IMG/VR virus record: IMGVR_UViG_3300033149_003051
Location: 1-24,228 of that record
DNA: 24,228 nt
Strand: one strand, 5' to 3'
Source: a virus
The notes under the pieces were generated by a model. That model searched no databases. It saw nothing but the letters and a program-made list of their open reading frames with translations, and had not been told where the DNA came from. A program made the position numbers and the translations under genes. Position 1 is the stretch's first letter. The number at the start of each line of letters is the position of its first letter. This document shows, piece after piece, positions 572 through 11,386 of this stretch.

Positions 572-955
572 CTACTCTTGGAAAAATCTTTTTGTTTTTA
601 TCTCTTCAAAAGACTCTTTTATCGAAGATAAAGAATGTTCTGGTTCCCAGTTTGTCATGCCTATTGTCCACACGATGTGGCGCCGAATGTATCTGCCATA
701 ACCTCTTCTGCTAAATAGCTCACCGCAAGAGTGAATATTTTCACCAGGCATAAATATCTGTAGTAGCAGACTGGCCTGGCAGGAGCGACACAAGAAACTG
801 TCTTTGCATCTCTTTCTTTCTTTAAAGGCAACAGGATATCCGTCTTCATCGTAGATATACTCGTCTGGGTCTATTTTTGTGGTTAGAGCGTAGCAACAAC
901 TGATCAAGCCATCTGCGGCTATGTTCCATCTTTCTTGGACTTCGTTGATATTCAT
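572..955 (-). CDS. Cys-rich hypothetical protein, copy 1 of a tandem pair
   Basis: A paralogue of the gene at 189-545, with the same six cysteines and EVQERWN, DEDG, PGEN and YGR-[FY]-IRRH motifs. The start chosen here (ATG at 955, GGGGG just upstream) aligns with the paralogue's start. An in-frame ATG at 982 overlaps the previous stop as TAATG and would add nine residues; coupling to the upstream gene makes it a real alternative. A stretch of about 20 bases near the start codon is identical between copies, so the duplication looks fairly recent while the proteins have diverged. Putative zinc-binding protein, function unknown. Confidence 0.82.
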   Translation of the reverse strand: MNINEVQERWNIAADGLISCCYALTTKIDPDEYIYDEDGYPVAFKERKRCKDSFLCRSCQASLLLQIFMPGENIHSCGELFSRRGYGRYIRRHIVWTIGMTNWEPEHSLSSIKESFEEIKTKRFFQE

Positions 956-981
956 TATGCCCCCATTATTACCATCAAACA

Positions 982-1200
982 TTAGTGATTAACTTCCTCT
1001 ACCGGAGTTATGCTTTCCTCTGGCAGATAGGTCATTGCGTCAATTTCGGGAATATACACAGCGTAGACAACACGACCTTCTGGAGATACATAATCAGTCT
1101 CAATCTGGCCTGTTAAGATATAGCTCTCAATAGGATCTACACCCTTGAAGCAAAAGGTAGTAGTATACTTGACGTAAGTTCCTTTTTCTAAGACGTGCAT
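982..1200 (-). CDS. Small hypothetical protein
   Basis: A 72-residue protein with a textbook AGGAGG site before its ATG at 1200. It is rich in short beta-type stretches (VKYTTTF, YILTGQI, VVYAVYIPEI), consistent with a small beta-barrel, and acidic towards its end. Its stop overlaps the alternative ATG of the next gene (TAATG). It lies 12 bases after the VWA gene in the same operon. No family recognised. Confidence 0.8.
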   Translation of the reverse strand: MHVLEKGTYVKYTTTFCFKGVDPIESYILTGQIETDYVSPEGRVVYAVYIPEIDAMTYLPEESITPVEEVNH

Positions 1201-1212
1201 AGCTGCCTCCTA

Positions 1213-1824
1213 TTAAAGGTTGATTGAACCTTTGCCAGCATCTTGAGTGAGTAAGAGATTCTCCATAGTCTGCTCTAACTTGAGCAGCTCTTCTTCGCCT
1301 ACTTTTCCATACTCACCACCAGTAACGGCGGCGAGTTGTTTCAAGAACTGTTCATCAAAGTCATAATAACCTTCACCGATGCCAAGACAAGATATCTTGA
1401 CTTCTCTCATCTCAGCTTCTTGGACGATCTCATTTGGATGGGCATCTGTAGGTTTGCCGTCCGTGACGAGGATGATGTGCGTAGGAGACATCCCCCATGC
1501 TAACATGAGGCCTTCAAGCATAGGTGTCGTGCTCGTAGGCTGGTGATGATGAATATCTTCTGGAAGTATCTCTGTGGCATGGTAGTCGGAGAACTTAACT
1601 ATTCTAGCCTCTGGATATTTCTCAATAAGGTTAAGAGTTGCCTGTTTAAGATGATCTATCTTCTGCCCATACATGGAACCTGAAAAGTCTAGGCAGAAAA
1701 CGATTCCTTTTCCTCTGTTGGAGTTAATTGTTAACTTGTGCTTGAGGGTAGAAGGTAGTTTGACCTTCCTGCCATTGGCCTTTAACTTAGCTATTTGATG
1801 TTTGATAGTTAGATCCTTGTTCAT
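1213..1824 (-). CDS. von Willebrand factor A (VWA) domain protein with MIDAS
   Basis: This 203-residue protein is almost entirely a VWA domain. After a basic N-terminus (residues 1-38), strand one carries the metal-ion-dependent adhesion site DxSxS as D46, S48, S50; the conserved Thr falls in TSTT (97-100) and the final Asp in TDG (D122). VWA domains bind a divalent ion and a partner protein, often as part of AAA+ or chaperone assemblies. All MIDAS residues are present, so metal-dependent binding is expected. No signal peptide or membrane segment is seen, so it is cytoplasmic. The start has GAGGAG eight bases upstream, and only three bases separate it from the previous gene. J-domain and unknown proteins precede it in the operon, suggesting a shared complex (inference). 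Confidence 0.92.
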   Translation of the reverse strand: MNKDLTIKHQIAKLKANGRKVKLPSTLKHKLTINSNRGKGIVFCLDFSGSMYGQKIDHLKQATLNLIEKYPEARIVKFSDYHATEILPEDIHHHQPTSTTPMLEGLMLAWGMSPTHIILVTDGKPTDAHPNEIVQEAEMREVKISCLGIGEGYYDFDEQFLKQLAAVTGGEYGKVGEEELLKLEQTMENLLLTQDAGKGSINL

Positions 1825-1827
1825 TGT

Positions 1828-2199
1828 CTAGCTCCTCTTTGGCGGTTTGATTCTTACTGCGATTGTCTCTCTTGGCCTTTCCGGCTCCACTCTTGCCGGC
1901 TCCACTGCTGTCTGCTCTATCACCTTCTCTTCGTCTTCTTTGCTTTCAAGACAAAAACAGAATTCCTCGCCTTGAGAGAATATGGTGTTATAAAGATAGA
2001 CAGGCGTTCTAAGATAGGCCTGCCTTACGTGATCTTCATAGTAAGGAACAAGTTTCTTTCCTTTCCATGAGGATATCTTTGCTGTGGTCTTGTACTGCTT
2101 TTTGGCCCATTCGACTATGATTGAATAGGCTTCATGAGGAACGTATATCTCATTTCCTGGATAAGCTCTGTGCAGGTCATCCAAGAGTGTCTTAAGCAT
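1828..2199 (-). CDS. Hypothetical protein between J-domain and VWA genes
   Basis: A 123-residue protein overlapping the end of the J-domain gene by eight bases, a sign of translational coupling. The N-terminal 90 residues look globular (several Trp and Tyr, and a YEDHVRQAYLRTPVYLY stretch). The C-terminal 35 are low-complexity, charged and Pro-rich, probably a flexible tail. No known family is recognised. Its position makes it a candidate partner of its two neighbours. Confidence 0.85.
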   Translation of the reverse strand: MLKTLLDDLHRAYPGNEIYVPHEAYSIIVEWAKKQYKTTAKISSWKGKKLVPYYEDHVRQAYLRTPVYLYNTIFSQGEEFCFCLESKEDEEKVIEQTAVEPARVEPERPRETIAVRIKPPKRS

Positions 2200-2653
2200 T
2201 ATAAGACTCCATTATCTCACGGTAAGCTTCTTGAATCTCTTGGCACTTCTCAGTATATTGGGCCTTGAGATCAGGGTCTTGTACACGGTCTGGATGATAC
2301 TTTCTCATGAGAGTTTTATATGCTGCCTCTACCACTTCTCTTTCTGCCGTAGGGACAACTCCTAGGATATCATGGCTAGTCTCCATGATGTCTTGCAATC
2401 CATGAATGTCTGGGAAGTACTTCATGGCGAGATCAAGAAATTCTGGAAGGACGTCTTGAGATAGCTCCCATCTCTTTCTTTCTGTGTTCCAGACCCTCTT
2501 AGTAGAGTTGAAGAGGGTCAAGAACTCTTGCTTGAATTCTTTATTCTCAGGGGCATAGAAGACTATATGTCCCTGAGAGTTTATCATGATTCTTGCAGCA
2601 GATTCTATTTTTCGCTGGGCCTTTTGTCTTCTGGTGCGTCTGTAATATGCCAT
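2192..2653 (-). CDS. J-domain (DnaJ-like) co-chaperone with N-terminal HARP-like segment
   Basis: The 153-residue protein ends in a J domain (about residues 93-153). The diagnostic HPD is at 120-122 after a basic helix, and a QEIQEAYREI helix follows. J domains bind Hsp70 (DnaK) and stimulate its ATPase, so this protein probably recruits the host DnaK to a phage target. Before it, residues 30-75 have the pattern YAP-x4-FKQ followed by WN-x2-[KR]-[KR]-x-WE, reminiscent of HARP-type nucleic-acid-binding modules; the same pattern recurs in the late gene at 20234. There is no Gly/Phe or zinc region, so it is not a full DnaJ. The N-terminus (1-20) is very basic. Confidence 0.9.
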   Translation of the reverse strand: MAYYRRTRRQKAQRKIESAARIMINSQGHIVFYAPENKEFKQEFLTLFNSTKRVWNTERKRWELSQDVLPEFLDLAMKYFPDIHGLQDIMETSHDILGVVPTAEREVVEAAYKTLMRKYHPDRVQDPDLKAQYTEKCQEIQEAYREIMESYNA

Positions 2654-2655
2654 GA

Positions 2656-2952
2656 TTATTCACTCCCATTCTTGGCTTTATTCAGAAGGAAGTTAAACAT
2701 GGCCTGAGCCTTTTTTTGATCGATCCTTTGCTTTTTCTCTTTAGGGAGTGTAGGTGGAACTGGAAAGTGTGTTCGGTGGTAGGTGTCTTCACCATGTCTA
2801 AGCAGAGTCATAGCTTGGTGCCATTCCTCTGCAAGCTTGTTATGTAGGGCAGTATGATAAGCTATCTGCCCTTGATGATAGTCCAATTTTGTCTTGAGCT
2901 CTCTAACGTATTGCTCTAATTGCGGGCGGGTCATGGTCTCGATGCTTCTCAT
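2656..2952 (-). CDS. Helical hypothetical protein, first gene of the minus-strand operon
   Basis: The ATG at 2952 has AGGGAG nine bases upstream and gives 98 residues; a TTG at 2973 in the same frame lacks a ribosome site and is rejected. Residues 7-50 are helical with heptad-like spacing, probably a coiled coil; the C-terminus is Lys-rich. It is the first gene after promoter 2998-3025, with a leader of roughly 40 bases. Early promoter-proximal phage genes of this size are often host-takeover or regulatory proteins, but nothing in the sequence shows which. Confidence 0.82.
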   Translation of the reverse strand: MRSIETMTRPQLEQYVRELKTKLDYHQGQIAYHTALHNKLAEEWHQAMTLLRHGEDTYHRTHFPVPPTLPKEKKQRIDQKKAQAMFNFLLNKAKNGSE

Positions 2953-2997
2953 GTCTAGCTTTCTCCCTGGCAAGAGTTTTTCTTTGATCTTAGACCT

Positions 2998-3025
2998 ATT
3001 ATACCATGCCTTTGCGCAATGTCAA
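2998..3025 (-). promoter_or_regulatory. Strong sigma70 promoter of the leftward operon
   Basis: On the minus strand, TTGACA (3025-3020), a 16-base spacer, and a perfect TATAAT (3003-2998). The flanks GGGG before the -35 and GGCATGG before the -10 are shared with the promoter at 5060-5087. Transcription would start near 2990. The AACCCCT motif overlapping the -35 recurs in the neighbouring non-coding region and could be an operator. Confidence 0.85.
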
Positions 3026-3111
3026 CCCCTAAAGTGAAAATTTTTTCTTTAATGAAATCAGGCATTTAGAACCCGATTGGAAAAATCTAATGATTCTAAT
3101 AACTTTCACGT

Positions 3112-3124
3112 TTGGTCAGACCAA
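3112..3124. repeat. Palindromic site TTGGTCAGACCAA, copy 1
   Basis: A 13-base palindrome with one central base. With its flanks (CGTT on the left, TTTT on the right) it matches the copy at 3602-3614 read in the opposite direction. The pair brackets most of the gene-free region. Likely a dimeric-protein binding site. Confidence 0.6.
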
Positions 3125-3163
3125 TTTTTCTGAAAATTTCCCCAATAAAATCAACCCCTTACA

Positions 3164-3190
3164 CGTTTTCTTGAAAATTTTTAGAAAACG
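3164..3190. repeat. 8-bp inverted repeat CGTTTTCT / AGAAAACG
   Basis: CGTTTTCT (3164-3171) and AGAAAACG (3183-3190) pair perfectly around an 11-base AT loop. The half-site AGAAAAC recurs several more times up to about 3565, so this may be a binding site rather than an RNA hairpin. Confidence 0.4.
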
Positions 3191-3277
3191 CGAAACCTAT
3201 TGAAATCATTAGAAAAACGAGAAGTTTTCTTTTCTGGTAAATTCGCTTTTCGAGCTATTAAAACTTTTAATACCTTT

Positions 3278-3292
3278 TGACGTTTTTTGTCA
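3278..3292. repeat. TGAC-N7-GTCA site, copy 1
   Basis: TGAC (3278-3281), seven bases ending in six T, then GTCA (3289-3292). A near-identical copy lies at 3413-3427. The pair flanks the AT-rich core. Confidence 0.45.
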
Positions 3293-3412
3293 CTTAATAA
3301 CACAATATTACAATATTATAATATTCTCATTAATTAATAAAAGAAAACTTAATAAAATCAATCACTTATCAATCCCTTCAATTTCCCCAACAATTTCAAC
3401 CCCTTACCCGAC

Positions 3413-3427
3413 TGACATTTTTTGTCA
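3413..3427. repeat. TGAC-N7-GTCA site, copy 2
   Basis: TGAC (3413-3416), ATTTTTT, GTCA (3424-3427). It differs from copy 1 at a single base and is in the same orientation, 135 bases away on the other side of the AT-rich core. Confidence 0.45.
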
Positions 3428-3601
3428 CCTCTATTAAATCTTTTAACCCCAAACCCTTAAAACTTTTTACACCTGCGAAGCTTTTTCTCCAGAAAAGAAA
3501 ACTTGGCGATTTCCCAAATATATCAACAACTTTCACGTTTTCTGATTTTTTCCAAGAAAACTTGTAACCCCTTGAAATCCCTCGAACTTTTTCGGGGAAA
3601 A

Positions 3602-3614
3602 TTGGTCAGACCAA
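3602..3614. repeat. Palindromic site TTGGTCAGACCAA, copy 2 (inverted flanks)
   Basis: Same 13-base palindrome as 3112-3124. Its flanks (AAAA on the left, ACGCG on the right) are the reverse complement of those of copy 1, so the two sites are arranged as an inverted pair about 490 bases apart. Confidence 0.6.
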
Positions 3615-3705
3615 ACGCGTAAACCCTCGAAATCCTTAGACTTTTCCTAACCCCTTGAAACCCTTGGCTTTTCCGGCCTGGCTGGCCTAAGATAACCTCT
3701 TGGTG

Positions 3706-3750
3706 ACCTCAAAAAAGAAAAACCCCTGGGAGCATCTTAACTTCCAGGGG
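3706..3750 (-). terminator. Intrinsic terminator of the GC-richer minus-strand gene block
   Basis: CCCCTGG (3723-3729) pairs with CCAGGGG (3744-3750), extendable to ten pairs with one G-T. On the minus strand it is followed by TTTTTCTTTTTT. It sits 24 bases beyond the stop of the gene at 3775-4284 and closes that transcription unit. Confidence 0.85.
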
Positions 3751-3774
3751 CTCGAGAGATTAACTATCTAGGTT

Positions 3775-4284
3775 TTAGTCAATTGGGCAAGGCGCCCCGT
3801 GCGCCTCATAGACTTCCCTCATCTTGGCCTGAAACTCATCCTGACTCGGCATAGTACCCTTGGAGATATGATTTTCCATAAGCCACTTCTGCACTTCTGC
3901 CGCCGCCTTCTCTGCGGCTTTCTCAAGTCTCTTTTGCCGTTTATCAGGACTTTCGTACCTCTCCATCAGTTGTGAAGATAAGTCGGCTTCAGCTATCGTC
4001 TTGAAGCCGTGCCTGTAGACCTTGAGGACATAGTCTTGATCGATAGTGCTCAGCTCTTCGACTGACTCTGGCACTTCGACAGTGGCATATACCACCGCCT
4101 TACGGGCACCAGTGTTTCGGCACTTCACTTCATAAATGCCATCTTGCACTTGGCCCTGGTCGTCAGTTGCCTGCTCAATTGGGCTAAGATCCCAATCAAA
4201 CTTGGGATCTTTTCCCTGTTTCCTGAGATCCCGCAGTTGACCATCATCAAAACGATACTGCCGCCTGATCTGTACCTTTTCCAT
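3775..4284 (-). CDS. Hypothetical protein, charged helical C-terminus
   Basis: A 169-residue protein with AAAGGAG upstream of its ATG at 4284. Residues 45-95 look like a compact beta-rich domain (GIYEVKC, AVVYATVEVPE, YVLKVYRHG). Residues 104-140 form a highly charged, Ala/Lys/Glu-rich helix, probably a coiled coil. It has only two cysteines (55 and 166). No family recognised. It follows a terminator at 4309-4345, so it is expressed by readthrough or antitermination from the promoter at 5060-5087. It is GC-richer than the operon to its left. Confidence 0.8.
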   Translation of the reverse strand: MEKVQIRRQYRFDDGQLRDLRKQGKDPKFDWDLSPIEQATDDQGQVQDGIYEVKCRNTGARKAVVYATVEVPESVEELSTIDQDYVLKVYRHGFKTIAEADLSSQLMERYESPDKRQKRLEKAAEKAAAEVQKWLMENHISKGTMPSQDEFQAKMREVYEAHGAPCPID

Positions 4285-4308
4285 GACTATACTCCTTTTG
4301 TTTGGGTT

Positions 4309-4345
4309 AATAATAAAAAAGGGCTAGCCCATTACAGGCTAGCCC
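4309..4345 (-). terminator. Intrinsic terminator between small genes
   Basis: GGGCTAGCC (4321-4329) pairs perfectly with GGCTAGCCC (4337-4345) around a seven-base loop. On the minus strand the stem is followed by TTTTTTATTATT. It lies immediately after the 47-residue gene and only about 25 bases before the start of the next gene, leaving no room for a conventional promoter between them. The T-tract sequence is identical to that of the terminator at 4521-4565. Confidence 0.85.
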
Positions 4346-4353
4346 TAAGACTC

Positions 4354-4497
4354 TTATTTATCGCTCGTCAGGGTCTCGCCAACGGCACGCTTGAAATAGT
4401 CTTTCTCGCCGTCATCAAGACGTTTCCACTCTTTGGCGAATTCCGCCGACGTCATCTCGAAAAACCTTGCGATGTCCTTCAGAGTTGCATCTGCCAT
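4354..4497 (-). CDS. Small helical phage protein, 47 aa
   Basis: A short gene starting at ATG 4497 with AAGGAG in good position and ending in TAA at 4354. The protein begins MADATLKDIARFF and continues with an FAKEWKRLDDGEKDYFK helix pair. This pattern (a small N-terminal helix, then EWK-x-L-x3-[ED]-K and a short tail) resembles a class of tiny helical proteins seen in many phages with no assigned function. It is bracketed by two terminators, at 4309-4345 and 4521-4565. Confidence 0.75.
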   Translation of the reverse strand: MADATLKDIARFFEMTSAEFAKEWKRLDDGEKDYFKRAVGETLTSDK

Positions 4498-4520
4498 AGC
4501 CCTACTCCTTTCTGTTAAAA

Positions 4521-4565
4521 GTTAATAATAAAAAAGGGCAACCCATCTTCCCCGTCGGGTTGCCC
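4521..4565 (-). terminator. Intrinsic terminator between small genes
   Basis: GGGCAACCC (4536-4544) pairs with GGGTTGCCC (4557-4565), nine perfect pairs with a 12-base loop, followed on the minus strand by TTTTTTATTATTAAC. The 19 bases at 4521-4539 are identical to 4306-4324 at the next terminator, so the T-tract and first stem bases are a direct repeat. Confidence 0.85.
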
Positions 4566-4584
4566 TGTCGCCGCCTCTTTCACC

Positions 4585-4610
4585 CCACCCAGCGGCGGCT
4601 CACTGGGTGG
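4585..4610 (-). other. Hairpin downstream of the Cys-rich gene
   Basis: CCACCCAG (4585-4592) pairs with CTGGGTGG (4603-4610) around a ten-base loop. No T-run follows, so it is not a terminator alone. It lies between the stop at 4624 and the terminator at 4521-4565, and could stabilise the message end or act with the terminator. Confidence 0.45.
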
Positions 4611-4623
4611 CAGGGTTCGTGTA

Positions 4624-4947
4624 TTATAACGTCACGTCCCGGGCGCTTCTGTAGGCCCGAGCTATCTCCCTCAAAAAGGCAATTGTGGCTCCTCTCTGGT
4701 GAGCCACTACTGCCTCTACCACGTCCAACAATTCTGCGGGGTGAGCATAAAACTCACGCCCACAGCAAATCTCGCCTTGGTCGTGTGTCCACCGGGACTT
4801 TGCGTCCCAATGGACTTGGCCCTTCTGGTTACAGATGTTGCACTTCCGCCGGACGAGGATGAACTCCCCGTCGGCGGTTACAAGGCGTCCAGCTCTGTCA
4901 CGCCGAACACCGCCACGCTCCCTCGCGAAGGCCTTCAAATTGTTCAT
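4624..4947 (-). CDS. Basic Cys-cluster protein, possible zinc finger
   Basis: The start is ATG 4947, with AGGAGG six bases upstream; the frame is open to 5136, but that extension crosses the promoter at 5060-5087 and is rejected. The 107 residues begin with an Arg-rich segment (9-21), then CNIC (36-39) and CC (61-62), with His 46 and His 55 between, which could bind zinc. A helical C-terminal half follows. First gene of its transcription unit. A DNA- or RNA-binding regulator is plausible, and an antitermination factor would fit the row of terminators downstream, but no family is recognised. Confidence 0.78.
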   Translation of the reverse strand: MNNLKAFARERGGVRRDRAGRLVTADGEFILVRRKCNICNQKGQVHWDAKSRWTHDQGEICCGREFYAHPAELLDVVEAVVAHQRGATIAFLREIARAYRSARDVTL

Positions 4948-5059
4948 TTTCTTCCTCCTGTCGCACCAGGTGTCCGCTGGTGCTGTCGGCCTGCCAACCT
5001 TGCCCTGGCAGGTGGGCGCTTTGGGATGGCCCTCTCGAGCCGCCCCCAATTTCACCCTC

Positions 5060-5087
5060 ATTATACCATGCCCAAACCCCTTGTCAA
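5060..5087 (-). promoter_or_regulatory. Strong sigma70 promoter of the GC-richer leftward block
   Basis: On the minus strand: TTGACA (5087-5082), 16-base spacer, TATAAT (5065-5060), transcription start near 5053. It shares GGGG before the -35 and GGCATGG before the -10 with the promoter at 2998-3025. The AACCCCTT motif at 5086-5093 overlaps the -35. Confidence 0.85.
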
Positions 5088-5099
5088 CCCCTTGAACCA

Positions 5100-5359
5100 A
5101 AAAATTTCGCCCCGCTTGCGATTTTCCTGGATGCAATTTTCATCTTACTCTATCTTGACCAATTTCTCAGATCATCTTAATCTATCACCATCCCGCCCAG
5201 GGTCATCTTCCTAGGATTCCTACTCTCATCATCCCAGCAGCTCACTAGGGGCCCCTTGGGGGTTCGGGAATCATGCTCCACCGGCGGGGTAGAGAGGGGT
5301 CCACTCCCCCACCATAAATAAAATTTTTCACCACTACATAATTACGCAATCTAAAACAC
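5100..5359. other. Gene-free region between divergent promoters
   Basis: No convincing gene. It contains a pyrimidine-rich stretch with repeated TCATCTT words (5140-5215), a perfect ten-base palindrome AGGGGCCCCT (5247-5256), G-rich runs to about 5310, and an AT-rich tail leading into the late promoter. A likely place for regulator binding between the leftward and rightward units, but no specific operator can be named. Confidence 0.4.
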
Positions 5360-5388
5360 TTGACAGGGGTGGAGCCCTAGGGTAGAAT
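5360..5388 (+). promoter_or_regulatory. Sigma70 promoter of the rightward (late) operon
   Basis: TTGACA (5360-5365), 17-base spacer, TAGAAT (5383-5388); start of transcription near 5395. It is the only clear plus-strand promoter seen ahead of the long rightward gene array. The five-of-six -10 and G-rich spacer differ from the two leftward promoters. Confidence 0.8.
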
Positions 5389-5423
5389 GGAGTAAAAAGG
5401 GGTGGAGAGGGAGATTACGTAAG

Positions 5424-5747
5424 ATGATAGTAGTTAAGGACTTAAGGTCACTAGGGCTGGATGATAAGTTGGTAGAGGTGGTAGAAGATCTCTTCAGGGG
5501 GTTTGGAGAGATGGTTATTACTTCTACTCTCCGGCCAGGTGATAAGGGGGTGCATGGTACTGTTCCGGTTAGAGGGATTGACTTGAGGTGCCGAAACATA
5601 AGTTTCGGGAGATTGGTAGAAACTTTTATTAACAGCCGGTGGGTTTATGATCCAAGGAGGGAAAGTCTCGCTGTCTGCATTTGTCATGATACCGGAAGGG
5701 GCCTGCACCTCCATCTTCAAGTTCATCCAGAGACAAGGAGAAGATAG
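5424..5747 (+). CDS. Putative M15-like peptidase (endolysin candidate)
   Basis: A 107-residue protein. The motif TSTLRPGD-x2-VHG (33-45) followed by GIDL (51-54) and HLHLQVHP (95-102) matches the zinc-ligand pattern of M15/hedgehog-type D,D-peptidases: H44, D53 and H97, with H95 nearby. Such enzymes cut peptidoglycan cross-links at the end of infection. There is no signal peptide, so export would rely on the holin encoded two bases downstream. It is shorter than typical lysins and has no wall-binding domain, so it could be a compact catalytic domain or a virion-associated relative. AGAGGGAG lies about ten bases before the start. Confidence 0.65.
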   Translation: MIVVKDLRSLGLDDKLVEVVEDLFRGFGEMVITSTLRPGDKGVHGTVPVRGIDLRCRNISFGRLVETFINSRWVYDPRRESLAVCICHDTGRGLHLHLQVHPETRRR

Positions 5748-5749
5748 GG

Positions 5750-6196
5750 ATGGGGTTTTTATCTTGGTTCGGGTTAGGGAAGTCAGTTAAGGCCGTAGAG
5801 ACGGGAGCAGATGTTGTTAAGACCTTTACGGATGGAATTGTAGATGGTCTAGATGCTCTCATTTATACGGAAGAGGAAAGAGCCAAGATGAGTCAGAAGG
5901 GGGCGGAGACTCTTTTGGAGTTTTTTAATGTTTTTGCGAGAGAGTCATCTCCTAGGGCGTTGGCCAGAAGAGCACTTGCTGTTAAGACCTTTGATGCTTT
6001 CTTTGCTCTTATTTTCTTGGGTGTTGTCTGTAGGATTTTCGGTGTAATAGAGCCGAAGTTAATAGACGTTGCTAAGGATCTCATTAGTCTAGCAACTTCC
6101 GGCATAGTTGGTGGATTAGTTCTCTCTGTCGCAACAACTTACTTCGTACCTCATCAGATCAGTAAGATTTGGAGAGGTAAAAATGCAAAAGATTAG
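5750..6196 (+). CDS. Holin-like membrane protein (GTA/3TM holin type)
   Basis: 148 residues. A hydrophobic N-terminal helix is followed by an amphipathic region (20-60) with a TEEERAKM motif, then an SSPRALARRALA stretch and two membrane segments (about 81-100 and 112-134), ending in a basic tail. This arrangement resembles the family of three-TM holins known from gene-transfer agents and phages, which form membrane lesions that let the lysin out. It starts two bases after the peptidase and overlaps the small terminase start by 14 bases, forming a lysis pair at the head of the late operon. Confidence 0.75.
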   Translation: MGFLSWFGLGKSVKAVETGADVVKTFTDGIVDGLDALIYTEEERAKMSQKGAETLLEFFNVFARESSPRALARRALAVKTFDAFFALIFLGVVCRIFGVIEPKLIDVAKDLISLATSGIVGGLVLSVATTYFVPHQISKIWRGKNAKD

Positions 6197-6857
6197 TGGA
6201 GTGTCAGGAGTACAGTTGCCAGAGCCTTCTAAGAAGGAGACGCCTCAACTGGAGCCTACTCAGGATCTTGTTGGGTTGATAGAAGATAGTGGCATCCGCT
6301 ACGGCACAGCTCCGCAACATAATCGCTTCGCCATGAGAAAGGGCGGCTGGAATCCAAAGGAACTTTCTCCTTTCATGCAGCGTATTATGGATATCCAGCT
6401 AATGAACCCTTCTCTCAAGGCTAAGGAGATAGCACGGCTTGTAGGTGTTTCTAAGAGCACCGTCTCCAGAGTTATCTCATGTGACATGTATCGCATGAGA
6501 TACAAGCAGCGCCGTCTAGAGATAGAGAAGATCCTTGATGAGACTACTGCTAGAGAAGTCAAGAAGTTCCGAGAGCTTCGAGATAAAATGATCGAGCTTC
6601 ATAAGGAACTTATTGAGAAAGATCCTGCTCAATATGCTGGGAAAGAGCTTGAATATGAGAAGCTGAGACAGAGGAGCATTTCGGAGATTCTTCGTCTCTC
6701 TGCTGAAGAGCTTAGGCATCTTCAGGGGAAGATTGATAACAATGGTAACGGGCAGGGTAAGGAGAGTTCTGTAGAGACAGGTGTGGAGTTGGATCTTTCT
6801 GATCCCAATGCGGCATATCTTCGTGTCGTCAGTCGCTTCAGGAAGGGGACTAAGTAG
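6183..6857 (+). CDS. terS: Small terminase subunit (TerS)
   Basis: 224 residues. A helix-turn-helix of the LKAKEIARLVGVSKSTVSRVI type lies at 79-99, followed by a long charged helical region (105-190) that probably forms the oligomerisation coiled coil. TerS rings recognise the phage DNA packaging site and load the large subunit. It sits directly before the large terminase and its stop overlaps that GTG start (TAGTG). It overlaps the holin end by 14 bases. Identification rests on the domain layout and position. Confidence 0.88.
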   Translation: MQKISGVSGVQLPEPSKKETPQLEPTQDLVGLIEDSGIRYGTAPQHNRFAMRKGGWNPKELSPFMQRIMDIQLMNPSLKAKEIARLVGVSKSTVSRVISCDMYRMRYKQRRLEIEKILDETTAREVKKFRELRDKMIELHKELIEKDPAQYAGKELEYEKLRQRSISEILRLSAEELRHLQGKIDNNGNGQGKESSVETGVELDLSDPNAAYLRVVSRFRKGTK

Positions 6858-8608
6858 TGGCTTACTTGTATCCAAAAGATAGGGAAGAGAATATCATCTA
6901 CAGAGATGAAGTTCTCCGTCTTGCGGATAAGGATGATGCTTTTAGAGATCTGGAGAAGAAGAAGTTCTTTTCAGATATTCTCTATGCTTTCAATGTCTTC
7001 TTCTGGACCTACGATCCACGGGTTCCACCTCACCATCTTCCTTTCATTACTTACGACTTTCAAGATGACGCGATTTTAGAAATCAATCAAGCAATAGAAG
7101 ATGGAGAAGATTTGCTCATAGAGAAATCTCGTGACATGGGTGTGAGCTGGATAGTAGTCTCCGTCTTCACTTGGAGATGGCTCAAGAGAGAATCAGGAAA
7201 TAACACTCTTGTCGGCTCGAGAAAAGAGGATCTTGTTGATAAGAAGGGGAACCTTGATACTCTTCTAGAGAAAGCTCGGTACCAGATTTACAAGATTCCT
7301 GACTGGCTAGTTCCTACTGGTTTCAACCCTCTTAAGCATGATAATCACCTTCAGTTATATAATCCCTCCAACAGTAATACCATCCAAGGTGAATCCACCA
7401 ACGAACACTTCGCTACTGGTGGTAGGTATAGAGCAGTCCTCTTTGATGAAGCCGCTAAGTGGGGGGAGTTAGCAGAGGCAGCTTGGATCTCTGCTGGTGA
7501 CTCTACTCCATGCAGGATTGCGGTATCTACTCCCTTCGGAATGGGTAATCATTTTGCTAAGTTGAGATTTAGTAAGAGCATCAAGGTTCTTTCCTTCCAT
7601 TGGACTAAGCATCCTATTAAGTCTCAAGGAGCATATTGTGATCTCGTCACTAGAAAAGTGAGATCTCCTTGGTATGACAAAGAGTGTGAGAGAAGAAAAG
7701 CCACTCCTCTTGCCATTGGTCAAGAGCTAGACATTGACTATGTCACCTCTGGTTCTCCTGCTTTCTCACCAGAGTACATCAAGATAATAAAGACCAGATC
7801 TGAACATGAGGAAAAGGCTCTAAAGCCTTATAAACTCAACGTCAACTCTGGATTCCCAGTTGTTAGTCAAATTGGTAATATCACCATTTATAGACCTCCT
7901 AGAAAAAACTGTCAATATGTCATCGGAGCAGACGTAGCAGAAGGAGTTGGTCTAGGGGATTTCTCTGCGGCGATAGTCTTGAATCGTCATACGATGGATA
8001 TTGATGCTGTTTATCATGCCAGGAGCAGTCCAGATACTTTTGCCTTTGAGCTTATGACTCTCGGCTACATGTACGCAGGTTGTGATCCTAGAAAAGCAGC
8101 TCTTCTTGCTATTGAATCTAATACCATTGGTAAGGGAACTGTCTTAAGATGTGATGAGGAGAACTATCCTAACCTCTATTATCACGTGAACGAACATCTT
8201 GCTACCAAGAAGCAAACCATGCGTCTAGGCTGGCTTACTACTAGACCAACCAAACTGATCCTAGTCTCCGAAATAGAGAACCATCTCTATAACTCTATGC
8301 AATTTGGATATTTCATCCCCATTAACATCTGTGAAGAACTTCTGACCTTTGTAGTAAAAGGTCAGAAGGGATCTATGCTCCGATATGAAGCAGATGATGG
8401 TTGTCATGATGATCTCGTCATGGCTTTAGGGATAACTCTTGCAGCTCATCAGACTGGTGGGGTTGTTAAGAGAAAGAAGAAGGAAGTAATTGCACCTGAT
8501 GTCTTCCCGAAAATGAAAGAGCCTACTATTCATGAGCTATGTATGGCAACCATCAAGAGGAGAAGGATGGAATCACAGATAGATGAACATTTTGGATTAG
8601 ATTTCTAG
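6857..8608 (+). CDS. terL: Terminase large subunit (TerL), ATPase and nuclease
   Basis: 583 residues, GTG start coupled to the TerS stop. The packaging ATPase has an adapted Walker A (SRDMGVSW, 91-98), Walker B with its catalytic Glu (VLFDEAA, 194-200), and a coupling ST at 224-225. The RNase H-like nuclease has its acidic residues at D359 (GADVAEG), E420 (AIES) and D518-D519 (HDDLVMA). It powers DNA translocation into the prohead and cuts the concatemer. Full length, all key residues present. TerL is the best gene here for placing the phage taxonomically and predicting its packaging mode. Confidence 0.97.
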   Translation: MAYLYPKDREENIIYRDEVLRLADKDDAFRDLEKKKFFSDILYAFNVFFWTYDPRVPPHHLPFITYDFQDDAILEINQAIEDGEDLLIEKSRDMGVSWIVVSVFTWRWLKRESGNNTLVGSRKEDLVDKKGNLDTLLEKARYQIYKIPDWLVPTGFNPLKHDNHLQLYNPSNSNTIQGESTNEHFATGGRYRAVLFDEAAKWGELAEAAWISAGDSTPCRIAVSTPFGMGNHFAKLRFSKSIKVLSFHWTKHPIKSQGAYCDLVTRKVRSPWYDKECERRKATPLAIGQELDIDYVTSGSPAFSPEYIKIIKTRSEHEEKALKPYKLNVNSGFPVVSQIGNITIYRPPRKNCQYVIGADVAEGVGLGDFSAAIVLNRHTMDIDAVYHARSSPDTFAFELMTLGYMYAGCDPRKAALLAIESNTIGKGTVLRCDEENYPNLYYHVNEHLATKKQTMRLGWLTTRPTKLILVSEIENHLYNSMQFGYFIPINICEELLTFVVKGQKGSMLRYEADDGCHDDLVMALGITLAAHQTGGVVKRKKKEVIAPDVFPKMKEPTIHELCMATIKRRRMESQIDEHFGLDF

Positions 8609-9676: not shown

Positions 9677-10954
9677 ATGATTAACCAAGGCTTGATAGAG
9701 ATAATCGGAAGAGACGTCACCTTTATTGCCGGATATGGTGTGAGGTGGGATAGCTCTAATGATATAATGACAGCAGGGATTATTAGTGGTGGGGAGTTCA
9801 TAGTCTTTGATTATCAGAATTTTCCTGTTCAAGAACAAATGCGTCGATGCGTTACTACGCATGGAGCGTCTTTCGGAATAGAGTATTACCTTCACCCCGA
9901 AGACTCTACCTTGAAGGAAGATGGTAGTGCTGCTAATATAGATGGTACAGATGGTCAAGTGATGGTAGAGGTTCCTCTTTTTTATTACCTTATCTGCACT
10001 GATGGGAATTATAAGTATTTTCTTGTTGGTGAACGTCCTTTTTCTCTTATTCTTAGTGACGGAACTGAGAAAATTGCTAAGAGGCATGAGTGGTTTGAAG
10101 AAGGAGGGACTCTTAGTGACAAGAAGTACATTGGAGCTTTTGAGGGTGTACTTTACGATACTGGCACGTCTTCCTACGTAGATGGTAATGGTACTGGGCA
10201 GTATTCCTCTGGAGATAAAATTCATAGTGCTGCCGGATATATTCCTCTTACGAAGGAGACAAGAGCCACCTTCCGTGCTGGGTGTTCTGAAGATAGTGCC
10301 TATCACCAAATGGGCTACTGGGCACGTGAAGCAATTTTGCTTCTTTATCTTACTGAGTATAAATCTTGGAATTCTCAAGCAATGCTGCCTGGCTATACCG
10401 AGGGTGGTTCCTTCAACATGAACAAGGTATGCAAGACAGGCATTACCAAAGTTTTTGGCAACAAATCAGGTTCGATTAACTGGGAAGATGCCGATACTAG
10501 TCTTCGTTGTTCTACTGATCAGACGGGGAAAGTTGTTGCAAGCTCTTTCCGCGGTGTCGAAAACTTTTACGGGCATCTCTGGAAATGGGTGGATGGCATC
10601 AACGTTGAGTATGTTGGTAGCCCCCTTACTGATGCCAATGTTTATACTTGTAACGACCCCTCTAATTTCGCTGATAATACTTCCACAAACTATGTTGACG
10701 AAGGCATTGATCTGCCCTTGACGAGCGGTTGGCAGCGAGATCTTCATGATGGGTGTCTACTTCCTTCATCTGTTGGGGGAAGTTCATCTACTTATATTAC
10801 AGACTATTTTTGGGCCGGCGGGTCTGCTGGGTGGGGCGGCGTCCTATCGGCGGGCAGTCTGGCTCAAGGCGCGTATGCGGGGGCCGCGGCGTGGGCTGCG
10901 AATGCCTCTTCGTCCTATCGCGATGTGAATATCGGTGGTCGGCCGGCTGCTTAA
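9677..10954 (+). CDS. C-type-lectin-fold adhesin with DGR-like variable C-terminus
   Basis: 425 residues. The C-terminal 135 carry the marks of the C-type-lectin/formylglycine-enzyme-like fold used by DGR target proteins and phage receptor-binding proteins: FRGVENFYGHLWKWVDG (291-307), LLPSSVGGSSSTYITDYFW (361-379), and a final NIGGRPA (418-424). The last 48 codons are about 69% GC with only 12 adenines in 144 bases, unlike the AT-rich remainder of the gene, and encode a Gly/Ala/Trp/Ser-rich surface. That is what adenine-targeted mutagenic retrohoming would leave. Residues 1-250 probably bind the virion. It sits before the portal gene, an unusual place for a receptor binder. Confidence 0.85.
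   Translation: MINQGLIEIIGRDVTFIAGYGVRWDSSNDIMTAGIISGGEFIVFDYQNFPVQEQMRRCVTTHGASFGIEYYLHPEDSTLKEDGSAANIDGTDGQVMVEVPLFYYLICTDGNYKYFLVGERPFSLILSDGTEKIAKRHEWFEEGGTLSDKKYIGAFEGVLYDTGTSSYVDGNGTGQYSSGDKIHSAAGYIPLTKETRATFRAGCSEDSAYHQMGYWAREAILLLYLTEYKSWNSQAMLPGYTEGGSFNMNKVCKTGITKVFGNKSGSINWEDADTSLRCSTDQTGKVVASSFRGVENFYGHLWKWVDGINVEYVGSPLTDANVYTCNDPSNFADNTSTNYVDEGIDLPLTSGWQRDLHDGCLLPSSVGGSSSTYITDYFWAGGSAGWGGVLSAGSLAQGAYAGAAAWAANASSSYRDVNIGGRPAA
10802..10954 (+). other. Candidate DGR variable region
   Basis: Codons 376 to the stop of the adhesin. Counting by hand from 10808 over 144 bases gives 99 G or C, 33 T and 12 A. The 3' end holds a short GC-only run (CGGCCGGC) before the stop, a feature of DGR initiation sites. 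No template repeat, Avd or reverse transcriptase was found in this window, so the assignment rests on composition and the protein fold. Confidence 0.55.
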
Positions 10955-10966
10955 GATGGAGACATC

Positions 10967-11386
10967 ATGAAAACAGTAAGTGATCAGTATCCGAAAATAG
11001 AAAAACTTCAGGGAAAGATCTTATTTCCTCATAACATCCAAGAAGTAACCATCACAGACGAAGATGGTTCACAGCGAACAGTATATGAGTACGATCTTCT
11101 TTTCGTGCCCGATCATGGACAGTTGATTGATGACTATGATAGATTTAAGCTAAGTAACTATCGCGACCTTCGTCGAGTAATGTATGCCGATTGGAGAGAG
11201 CAGCTAGACATGTTATATCATGGAACTTGGGAAGAGCATATTATGAGTGTCAAGAACCAGTTCCCTAAACCAGAGGAGGGACAAATATGGACTGGAGAAC
11301 AGGAGTCTTCTGTCTCTACATCGCAACCCAAATCTTCGATTTTGTCTCAACTAGGATCGTTCTTAAAAAAGGTGGTAGGGAGTTGA
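10967..11386 (+). CDS. Adhesin-associated protein, possible assembly chaperone
   Basis: 139 residues with a GGAG site. After a beta N-terminal half (QEVTITDEDGSQ, YDLLFVPDHG), residues 60-107 contain RRVMYADWREQLDMLYHG-TW and FPKPE, a pattern shared with small proteins encoded next to phage tail fibres (the YP-x-QLD-x2-YHG and YPKP theme). The C-terminal 30 residues are Ser-rich, with a short amphipathic helix. It begins 12 bases after the adhesin. Its last 100 bases overlap the next gene in another frame. Confidence 0.72.
   Translation: MKTVSDQYPKIEKLQGKILFPHNIQEVTITDEDGSQRTVYEYDLLFVPDHGQLIDDYDRFKLSNYRDLRRVMYADWREQLDMLYHGTWEEHIMSVKNQFPKPEEGQIWTGEQESSVSTSQPKSSILSQLGSFLKKVVGS

Follow-up and report, generated by a model that had tools for sequence, protein, structure and literature searches.

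The gene at 9677..10954 on the + strand of the window (the complete available virus record IMGVR_UViG_3300033149_003051, a linear fragment of 24,228 bases and not a whole genome) codes for a 425-amino-acid protein that, by its fold, the position of its variable region (VR) and its template pattern, is a variable protein of a diversity-generating retroelement (DGR), of the C-type-lectin (CLec) class. Taken as a whole, the evidence is very probably best explained by a DGR variable end whose cassette, the template repeat (TR) and the reverse transcriptase (RT), is absent from its slot, the target being either frozen or remotely served.

The 144 coding bases preceding the stop codon (10808-10951) contain 68.75% GC and 12 A, in agreement with the roughly 69% GC and 12 A given by a previous sequence-only reading, while the GC content is 43% in the remainder of the target gene and 44% in the record. 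This is the extreme of the record: the richest 144-mer across all 24,228 bases starts at 10812 (69.4% GC), and an A count of 12 or below is confined to three overlapping 144-mers, those with starts at 10807-10809. Among 4,378 in-frame 41-codon windows from the other main genes and from the target gene up to 10800, none reached 60% GC (the maximum was 55%) and none had as few as 12 A. The same reading placed the diversified segment at 10802-10954; the A-poor end is real, but the VR proper begins near 10826 at a conserved AGW motif, and 10802-10825 is a conserved lead-in. The A-poor and GC-rich VR core, delimited by composition and template comparison, thus occupies 10826..10951 (+ strand) and runs from AGW to IGGRPAA. 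The protein ends ...NIGGRPAA, matching the NIGGRPA terminus that had been read.

The 425-residue protein has no Pfam match, and in PHROGs it matches the tail-protein family phrog_5302 (E 5.6e-68). A profile built from 18 homologues gave a sole sequence match in the PDB, 5vf4 (E 1.6e-6), which is the crystal structure of TaqVP, the DGR variable protein of a Thermus aquaticus prophage (PMC6328139). The AlphaFold2 model of the target (mean pLDDT 84.6, pTM 0.88) retrieved TaqVP first in a Foldseek search of the PDB (E 1.8e-8), followed by Mtd (E 1.7e-3), so that the C-type-lectin-like domain proposed from the sequence is borne out by the predicted fold. TvpA, which together with Mtd and AvpA makes up the other solved DGR variable proteins according to the TaqVP paper (PMC6328139), was a weak match at rank 11 (E 0.28).

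The VR was read against the TRs of relatives, as distinct from a template of the window's own, the closest homologue being L178 with 59% amino acid identity. Relative to the L178 TR, the window VR has kept 10 of 30 A columns versus 72 of 96 non-A columns (Fisher p=5e-5), and the same A-column bias is seen with the TRs of L002 (p=0.0017) and L004 (p=0.0022). In the DNA upstream of the VR, the identity of the window is independent of whether the base of the relative is an A. Ten window codons between 10856 and 10930 (+ strand) stand opposite AAY codons of the L178 template in the VR/TR alignment, namely AGT at 10856, GCT at 10862, CAA at 10865, TAT at 10874, GCT at 10895, AAT at 10901, GCC at 10904, TAT at 10916, GAT at 10922 and AAT at 10928; nine of the ten are still NNY, with the pyrimidine third base kept. 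The A loss had been ascribed to mutation of template adenines. This part stands, since template A's are randomised, and a second cause has to be added, because A has to be kept out of those template codons that are not to vary. The latter accounts for the scarcity of third-position A in the window VR (2 counted, where the remainder of the gene predicts about 6.8), which is also found in homologues with live cassettes. A GC-rich patch taken by itself could come from transfer, and horizontal transfer or codon bias might then explain the gene end with no DGR involved. We regard this as highly improbable, since the patch sits exactly at the VR of the homologues, fits the templates of the relatives at the codon level and shows an excess of change at template-A columns.

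The search of related contigs that the sequence-only reading had proposed revealed the cassette in the relatives. TR and RT lie immediately downstream of the target in 5 of the first seven viral homologues and, in a wider scan, in 48 of 80, a count in which some contigs repeat the same sequence (L210/L212/L218, L002/L003 and L055/L056). The remaining loci of that scan, whose classes were called by a script that could miss a divergent RT, comprise 6 with a TR and no RT found, 2 with an RT only, 13 that are cassette-less despite at least 1.5 kb assembled downstream, and 11 that are cut by the contig end. TR and RT also accompany 14 of 23 homologues from bacterial and archaeal genomes. The best PDB match of the relatives' RT is 8ub7 (E 2.6e-56), which we take to be the DGR RT of a Bordetella phage. 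Of 47 complete cassettes, 35 have a VR that departs from its own TR by 0 or 1 non-A mismatch per 96 nt. Contig L005 (IMGVR_UViG_3300021349_000004), whose protein is nearly identical to that of L004, ends at 11056, exactly at the VR start, as would be expected if VR diversity breaks assembly. That the window gene is or was a DGR target, as had been claimed, is strongly supported on three grounds: homologues have TR and RT at the same place, the window VR matches the homologues' TRs in the way typical of DGRs, and the predicted fold is that of DGR variable proteins.

In the window itself the slot is empty. A search of the record found no second copy of the VR and no RT, confirming that neither RT nor template repeat is in the window, which holds target and VR but not these two parts of a complete DGR. 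The target stop is separated by only 12 nt (10955..10966, + strand) from the next start, that of an accessory gene of 139 amino acids at 10967..11386 (+ strand). The order is target-TR-RT-accessory in L178 and target-12 nt-accessory in the window, and the two accessory proteins are 48% identical. Homologues of the accessory protein follow the RT in L178 and L004, the TR in L188, where the order is target-TR-accessory with no RT found, and the target itself in L184 (target-accessory). The sequence conserved behind the TRs of relatives is absent from the window. The search for a BPP-1-type hairpin behind the VR of the window yielded nothing more than a stem of 4 bp with a loop of GAGA; it overlaps the likely ribosome-binding site of the next gene and was taken as chance, and relatives with cassettes have no such hairpin behind the VR either. 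We infer that the window's phage itself lost the cassette, rather than receiving a module without it. When nearest relatives were sought by capsid and terminase, the sister phage by capsid, L018, proved to have no target gene at all, which leaves room for a module that came in with its cassette already missing.

Other parts of the record are worth describing. Scans for tRNA and Rfam families gave no match in the window, including a gene-free stretch of about 800 nt at 2974-3774 that lies between minus-strand genes, with about 30-36% GC and a strong skew of C over G (about -0.39). The region 4290-5420, ahead of the plus-strand structural genes, is GC-rich (up to 57%); it contains short hairpins, and AATAAAAAAGGGC stands before them near 4310 and 4525. 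On the minus strand, a von Willebrand A domain protein and a DnaJ-domain protein are encoded by the phage close together, at 1213-1824 and 2192-2653.

Taking into account the order of genes and the fold, we propose the following model. The target is very probably a tail protein of the receptor-binding type, of the TaqVP/Mtd class, whose last 42 or so codons form the variable region of a DGR. An ancestor would have carried TR and RT next to the gene, as the relatives do, and the gene end would have been overwritten by template copies altered at random at their adenines. The TR-RT cassette being absent between target and accessory gene, the target would be non-autonomous; either its latest variant has become fixed, or a TR and an RT outside the record continue to rewrite it.

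That the cassette was lost, VR rewriting ended and one receptor-binding variant was kept is a reading that falls only just short of probable. Losses at several stages are seen across the family. A TR is present and an RT absent by either test in L179, L188, L222 and L225, and L204 keeps a TR together with a short C-terminal remnant that resembles an RT. In Synechococcus phage S-EIV1 the VR is diversified and the TR intact, but the RT is reduced to the first 27 codons (locus KJ410740.1:21519-21599, equal to L098:5520-5600; TR at L090:3967-4099), and no RT was found in its 79-kb circular genome. The crAss-like phage cr85_1 has, beside its target homologue, an RT remnant with three stop codons (MT774390.1:22118-22492), near which no TR was found. 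Both TR and RT are absent from the complete circular record of Methanosarcina virus MetMV. In that record (MK170447.1) the same gene run occurs at 754-7994 and at 59883-67123, with an offset of 59,129 bases, and the deposited circle apparently includes a terminal repeat of about 8 kb. Among records of up to 90 kb with cassette-less, TR-only or cut-off targets, 17 of 18 have no RT, the exception being L178, where the RT is adjacent. Genome-wide TR searches, which covered three MAGs with homologues, found nothing in the assemblies that fits the VR with at most 3 mismatches. In MAGs with cassette-less targets, RTs located on other contigs were considered as suppliers and discarded, no matching TR being found beside them. 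Since intermediates occur in L188, L184, S-EIV1, L204 and MetMV, cassette loss is recurrent, and the window target belongs with other targets, met repeatedly in the family, that have no adjacent mutator. Some cassette-less VRs, those of L195/L053, of L237 and, in part, of L211, are filled with third-position A and look old, which also speaks against continued rewriting in the family. There is precedent in Treponema denticola, where target genes, read as remnants, persist in isolates that have neither RT nor TR (PMC4891356). Nevertheless, an end to rewriting sits poorly with the window VR, which still looks fresh by its third-position A.

Evidence for rewriting after cassette loss comes from other cassette-less members of the family, the siblings L197 and L210, which have a common cassette-less junction (VR loci at L197:10976-11345 and L210:5601-5970). 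They differ at 51 of 600 nt upstream of the VR and at 8 of 245 downstream. Measured on the TR of a third phage (L204:11232-11333), their VRs differ at 15 of 31 template-A columns versus 2 of 71 other columns (p=8e-8), so that some cassette-less lineage was rewritten after the junction arose. The L210 VR has 0 of 71 non-A mismatches to this foreign TR at a target identity of 75%, while 27 comparisons among cassette-bearing phages at 70-75% identity, limited to pairs with at most 25 mismatches, gave at least 4; the contrast is post hoc, the orphan pairs having been chosen for closeness. At least one cassette-less lineage has therefore been rewritten since the junction arose, either by a remote or foreign DGR or through recombination with a DGR-bearing relative. 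Accordingly, continued rewriting of the window VR by an RT and TR elsewhere in the phage, or supplied by its host or a co-infecting phage, is a real possibility, if not a probable one, and remote variable proteins are known from cyanobacteria (PMC7517822). Against such a supply, no RT was found in the records of L197 and L204, nor in the complete MetMV and S-EIV1; recombinational exchange of VRs would yield the same pattern; and no TR fitting the window VR was found in IMG/VR by window-specific VR/TR pattern searches, nor among the 243 sequences compared. A contig near-identical to the window was likewise not found in IMG/VR. The claim of an RT and template at another site in the phage or acting from the host is hence not established, the slot being empty and complete cassette-less genomes having no RT, and the L197/L210 pair gives it the standing of a possibility.

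The known systems each share part of this arrangement. TaqVP, the top match in sequence and structure, has the CLec fold and a C-terminal VR of about 40 amino acids, but avd, TR and RT lie beside its gene, while the window record has no TR or RT. Mtd of Bordetella phage BPP-1 (PMC3240598) is likewise of a phage receptor-binding class, with a C-terminal VR and adenine-directed variation; BPP-1, however, has TR, RT and a GC-rich hairpin with stems of 7-10 bp behind the VR, none of which the window has beyond its 4-bp stem. The cyanobacterial remote variable proteins also include a CLec target away from the RT, but in that case the genome that holds the target is known to carry RT and TR as well, whereas neither was found in the window record. 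The T. denticola remnants, VR-bearing targets without a core DGR, are the nearest precedent; they belong to a bacterial chromosome, whereas the target in the window is a phage tail gene, the empty slot beside it can be identified and relatives supply intermediates.

Surveys of DGRs in metagenomes take the RT as their starting point, and targets without an adjacent RT escape them by design (PMC8144416). In the tail-protein family of the target such cases recur, as the 13 cassette-less viral homologues and the further ones with a TR and no RT show. It is conceivable, though we think it unlikely, that these are non-autonomous DGR targets, in which phages shed RT and template and yet get new VRs from a template and RT of other phages or of the host, or by VR exchange with them, in analogy to non-autonomous transposons that depend on autonomous ones. 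Should rewriting of such targets continue, more phages would be reached by DGR diversification than RT counts suggest, and the dynamics of helper and non-autonomous elements would be testable with existing contigs and reads.
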